Assembly (NCBI RefSeq): GCF_944327235.1
Contig: NZ_CALVHE010000011.1
Span: 1-44,838, forward strand
Origin: an uncultured Desulfovibrio sp.
Lineage (GTDB): Bacteria; Desulfobacterota; Desulfovibrionia; Desulfovibrionales; Desulfovibrionaceae
DNA: 44,838 bases
Direction of reading: 5' to 3'
In this document: piece by piece, positions 2,892-41,400 of the stretch
How positions within the stretch are numbered: the first letter of the stretch is position 1
Layout: each line of letters opens with the position of its first letter
The notes under the pieces: model-generated
Told to the model about the DNA's origin: nothing
Database searches by the model: none
The model's input: the letters and a program-made list of their open reading frames with translations, nothing else
Made by a program: the position numbers and the translations under genes

Positions 2892-3929
2892 TCACAACAG
2901 GGAAAGAAGGTTGTCGTCAGCGGGACGCTGACGGCTCTTGCGCGGCTCCTTTTCCGTCGGGGATGCCTGCGGCGTGCGCGGCCCCCGGAACAGGGCCCGG
3001 CTCAGGGTATTCTGGTAGGGCGTCCAGCCCTCTTCCGTTTCCAGCGCGGCGAACAGGCCGCGGCACTGGGCCATCTTGGCGTCGATATTGTCCGCATAGT
3101 GCAGGACGAGGGCCTCGGCCGTCTGCGGCAGGCGTACCGCGCCGAAGGCCGGTTCGCCATGATGACTGAGGATGAGGTGCTTGAGGTGGCGTACGAGTCC
3201 TTCCTCCAGTCCGGCCTTGTGCCAGAAGGGAGCGAGCAGCTCGATGCCGAGTTCCAGATGCCCGATGAGGCGGCCCTCGTCGGTATAATCATTGACCAGG
3301 CCGCCGGAAAATTCCCGGATCTTGCCGATATCGTGGAAGATGGCCCCGGCCAGCAGCGTCTGGCGGTCCAGTTCGACATACTGGTCGGCAAGGCGGCGGC
3401 AGAGTTTGAACACGCCGAGGCTGTGTTCCAGCAGGCCGCCCACATAGGCATGATGCACGCTCTTGGCCGCCGGGCAGACCCGGAAGGTCGCGGCCAGCTC
3501 CGCATCCCGAAAGACGCCCTGCACGAATTTGCGCCACGGCTTGTGCACGAACTCCTTGCCGATGAGTTCGTGCAGCTCCGCCATCATCTCGTCCAGATCA
3601 TAGGGGCTTGCGGGCATGAAGGCGGCAGGCGGCAGCGTGGCGGCCTCCTCGTCGGAGAGCACGCGCAGGCGTTCGACGGTGAGCTGCGTCTGCTCGCGGA
3701 ACAGCGCCGCCCTGCCCTGCACTTCCACCAGGCTGCCCACGGGGATGTCGGTGAATTCCGTGCTGAGCGGGGACCATATCTTGGCCTCCAGCGTCCCCGT
3801 GGCGTCACTGAGCGCAAGCCGCCAGTAAGGCCCGTTGCGGGATTGCGCAAGCGAGGCCTGCGAAACGGCGAATACGCCCTGCGCCTCGCAGGGAGGAGTT
3901 ATCTCTTTGACGTGGTGACCTTTTTCCAT
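2892..3929 (-). CDS. OB-fold/HD-domain protein, YhaM-like 3'-5' exoribonuclease family
   Basis: A 345-residue protein with an N-terminal OB-fold (about residues 10-90: GTLEAKIWSP, VEVQGRAALF, nucleic-acid-binding tRNA_anti type) followed by an HD phosphohydrolase domain. HD metal ligands are visible as HHAYVGGLLEHSL, IFHDIGK, HLELG and ILSHHG. This domain order matches the YhaM/CbfI family, which trims RNA and DNA 3' ends. The C-terminal 30 residues are basic and low in complexity (KEPRKSRQRPADD). ATG at 3929 follows AAGGG at six bases. It heads a minus-strand pair with tmk and is divergent from surE across 70 bp. A cyclic-nucleotide phosphohydrolase role is less likely because of the OB domain. 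Confidence 0.88.
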   Translation of the reverse strand: MEKGHHVKEITPPCEAQGVFAVSQASLAQSRNGPYWRLALSDATGTLEAKIWSPLSTEFTDIPVGSLVEVQGRAALFREQTQLTVERLRVLSDEEAATLPPAAFMPASPYDLDEMMAELHELIGKEFVHKPWRKFVQGVFRDAELAATFRVCPAAKSVHHAYVGGLLEHSLGVFKLCRRLADQYVELDRQTLLAGAIFHDIGKIREFSGGLVNDYTDEGRLIGHLELGIELLAPFWHKAGLEEGLVRHLKHLILSHHGEPAFGAVRLPQTAEALVLHYADNIDAKMAQCRGLFAALETEEGWTPYQNTLSRALFRGPRTPQASPTEKEPRKSRQRPADDNLLSLL

Positions 3930-8861: not shown

Positions 8862-9863
8862 ATGGCCGTCAAACTTGGTGTCAATGGTTTTGGTCGCATC
8901 GGTCGTTACCTGCTGCGTCTCATGGCGGACTCGCAGGACGTGGTCATCACCGCCATCAATGCCCGCGCGGACAATGCCGCTCTGGCCCATCTGTTCAAGT
9001 ATGACTCCGTCTACGGCACGTTTGCCGGTACCGTCGGGCATGACGAGAACGGCATCATCGTCAACGGGCGTCACATCACCGTGACCCGTTGCAAGACCGG
9101 CGAATGGCCGTGGAAGGAACTCGGGGTCGATTTCGTGGTGGAAACCACCGGCACCGCCAAGAAACGCGACGACGCCGCCCTGCATCTGGCCTGCGGAGCC
9201 AAGAAGGTCGTGGTCTCCGCTCCCTGCAAGGAAGCCGACGCCACCATCGTCATGGGCGTCAACGACGCCGTCTATGACGCCGCGGCCCACAGCGTCATCT
9301 CCGCCGCTTCCTGCACCACCAACTGTCTGGCTCCCGCGGCCAAGGTCATCAACGACGTGTTCGGCATCAAGCACGGCCTCATGACCACCATCCATTCCTA
9401 TACCATGAGCCAGCGCATCCTTGACGGATCGCACAAGGACCTGCGCCGGGCCCGTGCGGCCGCCGTGTCCATGATCCCCACCTCCACCGGTGCGGCCAAG
9501 GCCACCGCGCTCGTGATCCCCGCCCTCAAGGGCAAACTGGACGGCATGGCCGTGCGCGTGCCCACCCCCGACATCTCGCTGGTGGACCTCACCTGCGAGC
9601 TGGAAAAGAGCACCACGGCCGAAGAAGTGAATGCCGCCCTCAAGGCCGCCTGCGAAGGCCCGCTCAAGGACAACCTCGGCTACTGCGAAGAACCGCTGGT
9701 CTCCATCGACTTCAAGGCCGATACGCACGGCGGCGTGGTGGACTCCCTGACCACCCAGGTCATGGACGGCACCCTGCTCAAGCTGATCGTCTGGTATGAC
9801 AACGAAGCCGGCTTCACCAACCAGCTGGTGCGCCTGCTGCGTCTGGTCGGGGCTTCCTGCTAG
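8862..9863 (+). CDS. gap: Glyceraldehyde-3-phosphate dehydrogenase, type I
   Basis: NAD(P)-dependent oxidation and phosphorylation of glyceraldehyde-3-phosphate. The 333-residue length is standard. The Rossmann motif GVNGFGRIGRYLLR is at the N-terminus, the catalytic cysteine is Cys151 in SAASCTTNCLAP, and the later signatures STGAAKAT, MAVRVPTPDISLVDL and WYDNEAGFTNQ are intact. The RBS AAGAGGAG precedes the start. It is second in the fba-gap operon. The stop codon TAG (9861-9863) is shared with a family B repeat: TA is the likely target dinucleotide and G is the first base of the element. Confidence 0.97.
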   Translation: MAVKLGVNGFGRIGRYLLRLMADSQDVVITAINARADNAALAHLFKYDSVYGTFAGTVGHDENGIIVNGRHITVTRCKTGEWPWKELGVDFVVETTGTAKKRDDAALHLACGAKKVVVSAPCKEADATIVMGVNDAVYDAAAHSVISAASCTTNCLAPAAKVINDVFGIKHGLMTTIHSYTMSQRILDGSHKDLRRARAAAVSMIPTSTGAAKATALVIPALKGKLDGMAVRVPTPDISLVDLTCELEKSTTAEEVNAALKAACEGPLKDNLGYCEEPLVSIDFKADTHGGVVDSLTTQVMDGTLLKLIVWYDNEAGFTNQLVRLLRLVGASC

Positions 9864-10004
9864 AGCGTTTTGCCTTTGAAAGAGGCATGATGGGAGGCGG
9901 CAGCACAGTGCCGTCCGGCCCAACGTGAGGGGAAAAACCGCGTTTTTTCCGCGAAACGACAGGCCGTATGGTTTGAGACGCAAAGCGTTCCAAACTGAGG
10001 AGGC
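9863..10004 (+). repeat. Family B MITE-like repeat, copy 2
   Basis: The left end GAGCGTTTTGCC is preceded by TA. The core CGCGTTTTTTCCGCGAAACG is present, as is the right-hand hairpin region GTTTGAGACGCAAAGCGTTCC. The right terminus is degenerate (GAGGAGGCCCC instead of GAAAATGCTC), so the end is approximate. Confidence 0.8.
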
Positions 10005-10046
10005 CCCAAGGTCGCGTGCCTGCGGCGCAAAACGACGCACATCGTT

Positions 10047-10132: not shown

Positions 10133-10150
10133 GCTAAGTAACAGGCTATG

Positions 10151-10205
10151 CCCGCAAGGATGCGGGATGCGAATTAACTCCCATACAGACATTCATGGAG
10201 GAATG
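10151..10205 (+). promoter_or_regulatory. Flagellin leader with two GGA-loop hairpins (probable CsrA sites)
   Basis: Hairpin 1 is CCCGCA-AGGA-TGCGGG (10151-10166). Hairpin 2 is CATTC-ATGGAG-GAATG (10190-10205) and encloses the Shine-Dalgarno GGAGG. Both expose GGA in the loop, as CsrA sites do. The pairing of a distal and an SD-overlapping site resembles the hag leader of Bacillus subtilis. Confidence 0.6.
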
Positions 10206-10207
10206 TT

Positions 10208-11110
10208 ATGTATATCAATCACAACTCGATGGCCACCAATGTTGCCAACACTCTGACCGGTCACTATGGCAACCTGCAGACCTCTACCCAGCGCCTGTCT
10301 TCCGGTATGCGCATCAACAGCGCCGCTGACGACGCCGCCGGTCTGGCCATCAGCGAACTCATGCGCGCCGACGTTGCCGCCCTCAATCAGGGCGTCCGCA
10401 ACGCCAACGACGGTATTTCCCTTATCCAGACCGCTGACGGCGCCCTTGGCGTTATCGACGAAAAGCTGATCCGCATGAAGGAACTTGCGGAACAGGCCGC
10501 CACCGGTACCTACGACTCCACGCAGCGTCTGATGATCGAATCCGAATACCAGCAGATGGCTTCGGAAATCACCCGTATCGCCAACGCCACCGACTTCAAC
10601 GGCATCAAACTGCTCGACGGCACGCTGTCCGCCATGAACAATGCCGACGGCAAGATCCACGACGGTTCTCAGCTGACCGCTCAGGGCGCCTTGAAGGTGC
10701 ACTTCGGTACGGCCAACGACTCCGCTGAAGACTACTACTACATCGAGATCGGTGACTGCACCGCCTCCGCTCTGGGCGTGGGTATCTCCGCTCGCGCCGG
10801 CGCCGCCGGTAGCACCATCTCCACGCAGCAGGCCGCTCAGGAAGCTCTGGTGGCCATCAACAACGCCATCGTGTCCAAGGACAAGATCCGTGCTCACCTC
10901 GGCGCCATGCAGAACCGTCTGGAAAACACCGTGACCAACCTCACCGTGCAGTCCGAAAACCTGCAGGCCGCCGAATCCCGCATCCGCGACGTGGACGTGG
11001 CCACCGAAATGACCAACTTCGTCCGCAATCAGGTTCTTACGCAGTCTGCCGTGGCCATGCTCTCGCAGGCCAACAGCATGCCGCAGATGGCTCTGCAGCT
11101 TATCGGCTAA
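10208..11110 (+). CDS. fliC: Flagellin, copy 1
   Basis: Filament subunit exported by the flagellar type III system. The 300-residue protein has the conserved N-terminal D0/D1 (NHNSMATNVANTL, STQRLSSGMRINSAADDAAG, RNANDGISLIQTADGAL) and C-terminal D1/D0 (AIVSKDKIRAHLGAMQNRLE, AAESRIRDVDVATEM, NSMPQMALQLI) helices. Only a short central domain separates them, as is usual in Desulfovibrio. The protein is identical over all 300 residues to the copy at 38789-39691 on the other strand; I count eight base differences between the genes, all synonymous. Expression probably needs FliA, with translation governed by CsrA through the leader hairpins. A terminator follows 80 bp downstream. Confidence 0.96.
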   Translation: MYINHNSMATNVANTLTGHYGNLQTSTQRLSSGMRINSAADDAAGLAISELMRADVAALNQGVRNANDGISLIQTADGALGVIDEKLIRMKELAEQAATGTYDSTQRLMIESEYQQMASEITRIANATDFNGIKLLDGTLSAMNNADGKIHDGSQLTAQGALKVHFGTANDSAEDYYYIEIGDCTASALGVGISARAGAAGSTISTQQAAQEALVAINNAIVSKDKIRAHLGAMQNRLENTVTNLTVQSENLQAAESRIRDVDVATEMTNFVRNQVLTQSAVAMLSQANSMPQMALQLIG

Positions 11111-38000: not shown

Positions 38001-38720
38001 TATGAAGAAAACCTCCCGCTAGGCGGGAGGTTCAAAAAAGCTTAAAGCTTTGCGTGTGTTATAAAAACTCCTTTTGATTTGCTAGTATCTCGTTGCGGTC
38101 TGGCAACTGCAACAATGAAGCAAATCAAAAGGAGGTCACAATGGGTGACAACAAAAGTCTAGCACATACCAAATGGAACTGCAAATATCATGTAGTCTTT
38201 GCTTCCAAATATCGTCGCCAAGTTTTCTATGGAGAGAAAAAGCGAGCAATCGGTGAAATTTTGCGTAAATTGTGCGAATGAAAAGGGTTAATATCATTGA
38301 GGCTGAATGTTATCCTGACCATATCCACTTGTTGCTTGAAATTCCGCCCAAAATGAGTGCCTCGGGGTTCATGGGATATTTGAAGGGGAAAAGTAGCCTG
38401 ATGATATATGAACAATTCGGAGATTTGAAGCTCAAGTATCGCAACCGTGAGTTTTGGTGCCGTGGGTATTATGTGGATACAGTAGGCAAAAATGCGACAA
38501 AAATCCGTGAATATATCCGCAAGCAATTAGAAGAAGACAAGCTGGGGGCACAGCTCAGTCTTCATGCAGGCAGCTCGTTTACGGGCCGCAAGTAACAAAT
38601 ATGCAGATGTCAGACCGCTATGTGCCTGTTAGGGCGCGGCTGGTAAAAAAGCCTTATAGGCGCATATGAAGAACCACCGGCTTTGCCGGTGGGTTCCTTT
38701 TCGCGCCTTGGGCGCTCAAC
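38001..38720 (+). mobile_element. IS200/IS605-family insertion sequence (tnpA only)
   Basis: No terminal inverted repeats; instead a subterminal hairpin lies at each side, as expected for HUH single-strand transposition. Left hairpin: CCTCCCGC-TAG-GCGGGAGG (38012-38030). Right hairpin: CCACCGGC-TTT-GCCGGTGG (38674-38692). Both are preceded by TATGAAGAA. The interior is visibly AT-rich compared with all surrounding genes, suggesting recent arrival from a lower-GC organism. It sits between the chemoreceptor terminator and the terminator of flagellin copy 2. There is no tnpB. Exact ends are approximate; the right cleavage site may be near TCAAC at about 38716-38720. Confidence 0.82.
38141..38595 (+). 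pseudogene. tnpA: IS200-type transposase TnpA, frameshifted
   Basis: HUH/Y1 transposase in two frames. The first part (38141-38281, from MGDNKSLAHTKWNCKYHVVF) stops at TGA 38279-38281 after LRKLCE. The second part (to 38595) continues in another frame as KRVNIIEAECYPDHIHLLLE, carrying the HxH metal motif. IREYIRKQ holds the nucleophilic Tyr. Relatives read LCEWK-VNIIEA without a break, so one G has probably been lost from the Trp codon. GGAGGT precedes the first ATG. Translational coupling through the ATGA overlap is possible, but a functional two-part TnpA is unlikely. Confidence 0.85.
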
Positions 38721-38788: not shown

Positions 38789-39691
38789 TTAGCCGATGAG
38801 CTGCAGAGCCATCTGCGGCATGCTGTTGGCCTGCGAGAGCATGGCCACGGCGGACTGCGTAAGCACCTGGTTGCGGACGAAGTTGGTCATTTCGGTGGCC
38901 ACGTCCACGTCACGGATACGGGATTCGGCGGCCTGCAGGTTTTCGGACTGCACGGTGAGGTTGGTCACGGTGTTTTCCAGACGGTTCTGCATGGCGCCGA
39001 GGTGAGCACGGATCTTGTCCTTGGACACGATGGCGTTGTTGATGGCCACCAGAGCTTCCTGAGCGGCCTGCTGCGTGGAGATGGTGCTACCGGCGGCGCC
39101 GGCGCGAGCGGAGATACCCACGCCCAGAGCGGAGGCGGTGCAGTCACCGATCTCGATGTAGTAGTAGTCTTCAGCGGAGTCGTTGGCCGTACCGAAGTGC
39201 ACCTTCAAGGCGCCCTGAGCGGTCAGCTGAGAACCGTCGTGGATCTTGCCGTCGGCATTGTTCATGGCGGACAGCGTGCCGTCGAGCAGTTTGATGCCGT
39301 TGAAGTCGGTGGCGTTGGCGATACGGGTGATTTCCGAAGCCATCTGCTGGTATTCGGATTCGATCATCAGACGCTGCGTGGAGTCGTAGGTACCGGTGGC
39401 GGCCTGTTCCGCAAGTTCCTTCATGCGGATCAGCTTTTCGTCGATAACGCCAAGGGCGCCGTCAGCGGTCTGGATAAGGGAAATACCGTCGTTGGCGTTG
39501 CGGACGCCCTGATTGAGGGCGGCAACGTCGGCGCGCATGAGTTCGCTGATGGCCAGACCGGCGGCGTCGTCAGCGGCGCTGTTGATGCGCATACCGGAGG
39601 ACAGGCGCTGGGTAGAGGTCTGCAGGTTGCCATAGTGACCGGTCAGAGTGTTGGCAACGTTGGTGGCCATCGAGTTGTGATTGATATACAT
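38789..39691 (-). CDS. fliC: Flagellin, copy 2 (protein identical to copy 1)
   Basis: A 300-residue flagellin with the same sequence as the product of 10208-11110. The genes differ at about eight synonymous positions: six clustered in the last 150 bases and two near the 5' end. The central 650 bases or so are identical, a pattern of gene conversion. ATG at 39691 is set by homology and by GGAGG; an in-frame extension to 39952 would translate the leader and is wrong. Promoter, upper leader and terminator are different from copy 1, so the two are separate expression units of one protein. It is inverted relative to copy 1, 28 kb away, with an IS element just downstream. Confidence 0.96.
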   Translation of the reverse strand: MYINHNSMATNVANTLTGHYGNLQTSTQRLSSGMRINSAADDAAGLAISELMRADVAALNQGVRNANDGISLIQTADGALGVIDEKLIRMKELAEQAATGTYDSTQRLMIESEYQQMASEITRIANATDFNGIKLLDGTLSAMNNADGKIHDGSQLTAQGALKVHFGTANDSAEDYYYIEIGDCTASALGVGISARAGAAGSTISTQQAAQEALVAINNAIVSKDKIRAHLGAMQNRLENTVTNLTVQSENLQAAESRIRDVDVATEMTNFVRNQVLTQSAVAMLSQANSMPQMALQLIG

Positions 39692-39693
39692 AA

Positions 39694-39746
39694 CATTCCT
39701 CCCTGAATGTCTGTACGGAGTGGATGATAACCTGCTTCCCTGCAGG
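39694..39746 (-). promoter_or_regulatory. Flagellin copy 2 leader with two GGA-loop hairpins (probable CsrA sites)
   Basis: On the minus strand, hairpin 1 is CCTGC-AGGGAA-GCAGG (39746-39731) and hairpin 2 is CATTC-AGGGAG-GAATG (39709-39694) over the Shine-Dalgarno. Hairpin 1 has a different stem sequence from that in copy 1, but the same GGA loop and a similar place in the leader. Confidence 0.6.
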
Positions 39747-39758
39747 CGACTGCCCTCT

Positions 39759-39785
39759 TTATCGGCGGAAAAGGAACGGGGTTTA
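39759..39785 (-). promoter_or_regulatory. Sigma-28 (FliA) promoter of flagellin copy 2
   Basis: Minus strand TAAACCCC, 11 bp, GCCGATAA: perfect -10 and intact TAAA in the -35. It is a better match than that of copy 1. Confidence 0.78.
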
Positions 39786-41039: not shown

Positions 41040-41400
41040 ACTTGCCTTTGGAGCAGGGTTGCCTCGTGTCCTCGGCTCTTCCCCCGGTAAAAGCGCGCTG
41101 GGGAAGGAATGGAGGGCTTGGGGGAAGGGAGCGACCGAAAGGCGGCCGTAGGCCGTGCCCGTTAGGCGACAAAGGAGCCTTACGGGCATCGACAGCAGAG
41201 CGGGGGCCTTCCCCTCAACAGGCAGCGAATAGTGTTAGAGCATTTTGCCTTTGAAAAAGGCAAAATGCGAGGCCCGGCACAGCGCCGCCCGGCCCAAAGT
41301 GAGCAGGAAAACCGCGTTTTTCCGCGAAACGACAGGCCGTATGGTTTGAAACGCAAAGCGTTTCAAACTGAAAATGCTCTAACAGGTCCTAACAGGCCCT
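41040..41400 (+). repeat. Family A intergenic repeat, copy 4, interrupted by a family B repeat
   Basis: The core GGTAAAAGCGCGCTGGGGAA starts near 41087, then comes the hairpin module GTGCCCGT/ACGGGCAT and CGACAGCAGAGCGGGG. The right terminal sequence GTGTTAACAGG is split at TA: GTGTTA lies at 41232-41237 and TAACAGG resumes at 41380. The left end is not recognisable. Confidence 0.82.
41238..41379 (+). repeat. Family B MITE-like repeat, copy 6, inserted in family A copy 4
   Basis: 142 bp, GAGCATTTT...AAAATGCTC, flanked by TA on each side (41236-41237 and 41380-41381). Two perfect hairpins are visible: GCATTTTGCCTTT with AAAGGCAAAATGC at the left, and GTTTGAAACGC-AAA-GCGTTTCAAAC at the right. 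It is the best preserved copy in the window. Confidence 0.9.

Follow-up and report, generated by a model that had tools for sequence, protein, structure and literature searches.

Dual GGA hairpins in the leaders of two Desulfovibrio flagellin genes form a probable CsrA-FliW operator

The leaders of two flagellin genes within a 44,838-nucleotide stretch of an uncultured Desulfovibrio sp. (the window, contig C11 of a 2.74-Mb, Desulfovibrio-like genome) each carried two hairpins with a GGA-containing loop. With a probability of roughly 0.87, such a leader is a dual-site CsrA-FliW translational operator of flagellin mRNA like those of Campylobacter flaA and Bacillus hag. Flagellin copy 2 (38789 to 39691, minus strand, start codon at 39691 to 39689) encodes in translation a 300-aa protein with the Pfam domains Flagellin_N and Flagellin_C, and copy 1 (10208 to 11110, plus strand) encodes, also by translation, an identical protein; the two coding regions showed eight differences, all synonymous.

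In the minus-strand leader of copy 2, hairpin 1 (CCTGC-AGGGAA-GCAGG) occupied positions 39731 to 39746, with its ANGGAN hexaloop at 39741 to 39736, and hairpin 2 (ACATTC-AGGGAG-GAATGT), at 39693 to 39710, directly preceded the start codon. The AGGGAG hexaloop of hairpin 2 (39704 to 39699) runs into GGAGGA and thereby overlaps the Shine-Dalgarno (SD) sequence GGAGG, with 13 nt from the loop start to the ATG. In the plus-strand leader of copy 1, hairpin 1 (CCCGC-AAGGAT-GCGGG, 10151 to 10166) was recognized both in the sequence and by a covariance model, and hairpin 2 (ACATTC-ATGGAG-GAATGT, 10189 to 10206) in the sequence. The ANGGAN hexaloop was thus present in four of four hairpins, and the start-to-start distance between hairpins was 37 nt in copy 2 and 39 nt in copy 1. 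Both hairpins formed in a fold of the 71-nt copy 2 leader (z = -2.06); folding 151 nt of the plus strand, the wrong one for copy 2 mRNA, revealed no excess stability. For copy 2, the dual GGA hairpins folded as the initial annotation had described.

The two hairpins are real and not a chance occurrence. Only seven hairpins with an ANGGAN hexaloop and a stem of at least 5 bp were found on both strands of the whole 44.8-kb window, and four of the seven were those of the flagellin leaders. Furthermore, none of 20,000 dinucleotide shuffles of either leader gave two such hairpins.

Putative sigma28-like promoters could be read upstream of both leaders: TAAA-N15-GCCGATAA at 39759 to 39785 (minus strand) for copy 2, and TAAT-N15-GTCGATAA just upstream of the copy 1 leader. 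They were so called by the sigma28 (FliA) consensus, which was legible in both window copies and in many relatives. Only about 12 nt separated the putative -10 element of copy 2 from hairpin 1, and we infer from this layout that the copy 2 mRNA starts a few nucleotides before hairpin 1.

The candidate partner proteins were both encoded in the genome, which had a single CsrA of 78 aa, in whose translation L4 and R44 could be read, and a single FliW, and the csrA and fliW genes overlapped and were located after flgK-flgL on contig C7. In the C. jejuni flaA leader, two ANGGA stem-loops have been proven by gel shift, footprinting, and GGA mutations (PMC4894983). The window leaders share with that 5'UTR a pair of neighboring hexaloop stem-loops that display ANGGA, the downstream one covering the ribosome-binding site, and a sigma28 promoter, here a putative one; also common to both systems are compensatory changes that keep the structure (in C. 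jejuni within its own genus) and a FliW antagonist in the genome (PMC4894983). They differ in the spacing of the GGA motifs, which is 21 nt in C. jejuni flaA versus 37 to 39 nt here and 44 to 48 nt in most relatives, and in the adjacency of csrA and fliW, which is not found in Campylobacter. According to PMC8523840 and PMC7652899, which cite Yakhnin 2007, the hag leader of B. subtilis likewise contains a pair of CsrA sites, BS1 and BS2, with one of them lying over the SD sequence, and has a flagellin target and a FliW-CsrA partner switch, the last of which would be paralleled here; its leader sequence and site geometry, as given there, are different, and the likeness noted is one of layout. 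The Clostridioides difficile fliC 5'UTR also has two GGA sites, one at the SD sequence, although these are prediction only and the sequence is different (PMC8523840); flagellin in that species is genetically under FliW and CsrA control (PMC8523840).

Since the anatomy of the window leaders matches that of the Campylobacter flaA leader, CsrA repression relieved by FliW is proposed. In this scheme, for which we infer the promoter, the binding of CsrA, the repression, and the FliW switch, CsrA would by analogy be the protein that binds the leader. Transcription from a sigma28-type promoter would begin shortly before hairpin 1; both hairpins would be held by a single CsrA dimer, with hairpin 1 as the anchor; and bound CsrA would block the ribosome, hairpin 2 containing the SD sequence. 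FliW would pull CsrA off once the hook is complete and flagellin is exported, and flagellin accumulating in the cell would bind FliW and restore repression. In NMR structures, RsmE binds a loop of the ANGGAN type, and a CsrA dimer can bridge sites that are 10 to 63 nt apart (PMC7652899), a range that includes the 37- and 39-nt spacings. The CsrA-FliW flagellin switch is proven in Bacillus and Campylobacter, and the leaders add evidence from a sulfate reducer that it is ancient or recurrent. They also provide a testable RNA element for a family without published CsrA targets in the literature searched.

One point against the operator reading is that the leader stems, at 5 to 7 bp, exceed most CsrA ligands from SELEX in stability. 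As an alternative, the leader fold might serve chiefly as a stabilizer of the mRNA 5' end and as a thermodynamic, protein-free mask of the SD sequence: hairpin 1, or the junction that surrounds it in relatives, would lie within a few nucleotides of the mRNA 5' end, and hairpin 2 alone buries the SD sequence in a stem of 6 to 7 bp. However, stability alone gives no reason for ANGGAN in both loops; the motif was nevertheless kept in nearly all leaders while the stem letters varied, and the SD sequence accounts for the GGA of loop 2 but not for that of loop 1. With csrA and fliW in the genome as well, we consider a protein-free function improbable.

Conservation of the CsrA-FliW operator candidate could be followed in a sister genome, G044, which had both flagellin copies at collinear places. 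Coding differences amounted to 8/903 and 2/900 within genomes and to about 50/900 between genomes; because the copies differ less within than between genomes, conversion within each genome is indicated. The inverted copies, 28 kb apart, were homogenized by gene conversion over 10184 to 11110 and 38789 to 39715, here and in G044. An inversion between the two copies was also considered and was not seen, G044 being collinear. Upstream of about -24, the leaders were copy specific, with copy 1 pairing with copy A of G044 and copy 2 with copy B, and when paralogues from the two species were compared by BLAST, the similarity started at 10184, inside the leader. Hairpin 2 is therefore no independent evidence, because the last 24 nt or so were homogenized with the coding region, and hairpin 1 is outside the converted tract. 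Between orthologous leaders of the two genomes, changes were found at 28/120 positions in the upstream 60 nt, at 8/42 in the linkers, and at 2/68 in the hairpins; both hairpin changes fell on the free second letter of ANGGAN, and the stems had none.

These comparisons bear on the possibility that the hairpins reflect chance or the shared ancestry of recent duplicates, with no selection on structure. Gene conversion does keep the copies alike, so that little can be learned from hairpin 2 and the coding region by themselves. Hairpin 1, however, was intact in both paralogous lineages of the two species while the linkers changed, and it covaries across the family as described below; the absence of selection is thus already refuted unless the alignment is systematically wrong, and we give it almost no weight. 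The two copies form a natural experiment on the effect of the leader: since gene conversion keeps the protein identical and the leaders separate, what differs between the leaders can by itself determine how much each copy yields.

The initial annotation had argued for selection from conserved structure without conserved sequence, calling the hairpin 1 stems of the two copies unrelated. When the hairpins were aligned loop on loop, CCTGC/GCAGG and CCCGC/GCGGG differed at one pair, U-A versus C-G, and this compensatory pair and two loop letters were the only differences in hairpin 1 between the copies. The likeness had been missed because copy 1 was split as a tetraloop in a 6-bp stem (CCCGCA-AGGA-TGCGGG), and not as the hexaloop AAGGAT closed by the matching 5-bp stem. 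The premise of that argument was therefore overstated, and its conclusion stands on other grounds.

In the survey of relatives, 127 distinct flagellin leaders sorted into classes, and within the class with an SD hairpin, the upstream ANGGAN hairpin was present in all leaders except L076 and L094, so that the proposed search for relatives lacking hairpin 1 or its GGA returned only these two. In most leaders of this class, hairpin 1 sits within a three-way junction whose other two arms are P1, the outer stem, of the CGGCG/CGCCG type, and P3, a small hairpin; no junction is mentioned for C. jejuni flaA (PMC4894983). A covariance model, R1, built from 23 junction-bearing leaders with the window leaders excluded, matched both window leaders at E values of 6e-6 and 1.7e-5 (39755 to 39689 for copy 2 and 10144 to 10210 for copy 1) via hairpins 1 and 2, and the next match in the window had an E value of 0.08. 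The model search of the family sample found the element in 39 genomes out of 149; 30 loci were fetched by the model, and each of them was directly before a flagellin gene. Of the 39 genomes with the element, 37 also had FliW, and the remaining two were 58% and 62% complete; this co-occurrence is partly trivial because FliW and the element are each tied to the presence of flagella. Among 297 genomes sampled from the phylum, seven had matches, all of them in the genus of the window; the absence beyond the genus is weak evidence because few candidates were scored per genome.

Covariation across the related leaders, which had been suggested as a check, was found in the form of compensatory helix changes. 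In an alignment fitted to the structure (A4; 69 distinct aligned leaders), double changes occurred at 16 of 22 pairs, and the double-change cells numbered 159, against 46.5 ± 6.6 when shuffled and at most 21 with slid partners. When loop-anchored blocks, which were not fitted to the whole structure, were scored under a custom tree-aware null, ranks 1 to 3 were taken by pairs 4 and 5 of hairpin 1 and pair 5 of hairpin 2 (E values of 0.05, 0.08, and 0.25). In the model alignment under the tree-aware null, which ranked 2,628 column pairs, the five strongest were all predicted base pairs, two of them in hairpin 1, two in P1, and one in hairpin 2, with single-pair E values for P1 and hairpin 2 of only 0.1 to 0.3. 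Because of the low variability of hairpin 2, a single pair provides most of its covariation, and P3 was the helix with the least support. Alignment A3 alone, with 22 close rows, was underpowered in the tree-aware test (best pair, E value of 1.6), and MAFFT misaligned the junction in a set of 55 mixed leaders, in which RNAalifold saw only nine pairs.

The hairpin 1 loop had the sense form of ANGGAN in 76 of 106 leaders and the antisense form in none, which argues for RNA rather than a DNA operator. Perfect inverted repeats just downstream of a promoter are what the binding sites of a dimeric transcription factor could look like; the loop centers, though, are asymmetric, with GGA always on the mRNA strand, and the stems drift by compensatory changes where such an operator would keep its half-site letters, making DNA binding highly unlikely. 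Taken with the helix covariation, the unchanged stems in the sister orthologues, and the independent covariance-model matches, the sense-only loop upholds the earlier proposal of selection on an RNA-binding site.

A riboswitch-like metabolite sensor, to which the GGA hairpins would be incidental, could be suspected in the three-way junction of relatives, where hairpin 1 is enclosed by P1 and P3 and both of these helices covary. Recognizable P1 and P3 were, however, sought and absent in both window copies and in their G044 orthologues, all with intact coding regions, and it is the GGA loops, rather than a junction core, that have conserved letters. The likelihood of such a sensor is accordingly slight. 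Returning to the operator reading, the interval of about 12 nt between the putative -10 element of copy 2 and hairpin 1 would leave little room for a transcribed P1 strand, so both window copies look like reduced forms of the junction leader.

It is conceivable, though we hold it only tentatively, that the flagellin switch of the Desulfovibrionaceae is a distinct structured RNA, in which a three-way junction presents one CsrA hairpin beside a second on the SD sequence and sets CsrA affinity or mRNA stability; the junction-less window copies would then be a differently tuned leader pair for an identical protein. On this reading, the leaders might also titrate CsrA in the manner of the Campylobacter flaA leader. 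In Rfam release 15, the window leader had no match up to an E value of 5, and none of the loci from 20 relatives matched at gathering scores. The element was not described in the open-license literature searched on CsrA and flagellin in Desulfovibrio and on CsrA and three-way junctions, and the accessible part of an Oleidesulfovibrio alaskensis ncRNA survey does not name it. The principle is known from Campylobacter; the Desulfovibrio version and the junction scaffold of relatives appear to be undescribed, and the junction form could qualify as a new Rfam family.

Other flagellin classes of this genome had no such element, and not every flagellin would therefore be controlled in this way. The two hairpins were absent from a third short flagellin of the same genome, which has a sigma54-type leader, and from the long flagellins. 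The latter, on other contigs (L004 to L010 and L126), have about 445 to 545 codons and no dual hairpin, and their SD sequences lie in other predicted stems. The sigma54-type flagellins (L003, L020, L032, L048, L051, L064, and others) had a common leader immediately 5' of the start codon, with GGRCACAGCTTA near the inferred start, in which GGRCAC of GGRCACAGCTTA pairs with GTGYCC behind the SD sequence and closes a long stem over the ribosome site. In L105 (flagellin start near 3706, minus strand), the SD hairpin was divergent (GGCGTT-TGCGGAGG-AACGCC), with the loop GGA kept.

Several mobile or repeated sequences were found near the two flagellin copies. An IS200-like Y1 transposase remnant, whose frame from the ATG is interrupted, lay at 38010 to 38595, just downstream of copy 2, and the stretch before it was called STnc490 by Rfam. 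In addition, a MITE-like repeat of about 148 bp at 41236 to 41383 had more than 40 near-full-length copies in the genome, most of them 89 to 95% identical, and a related copy was located at about 9861 to 10020, upstream of flagellin copy 1.
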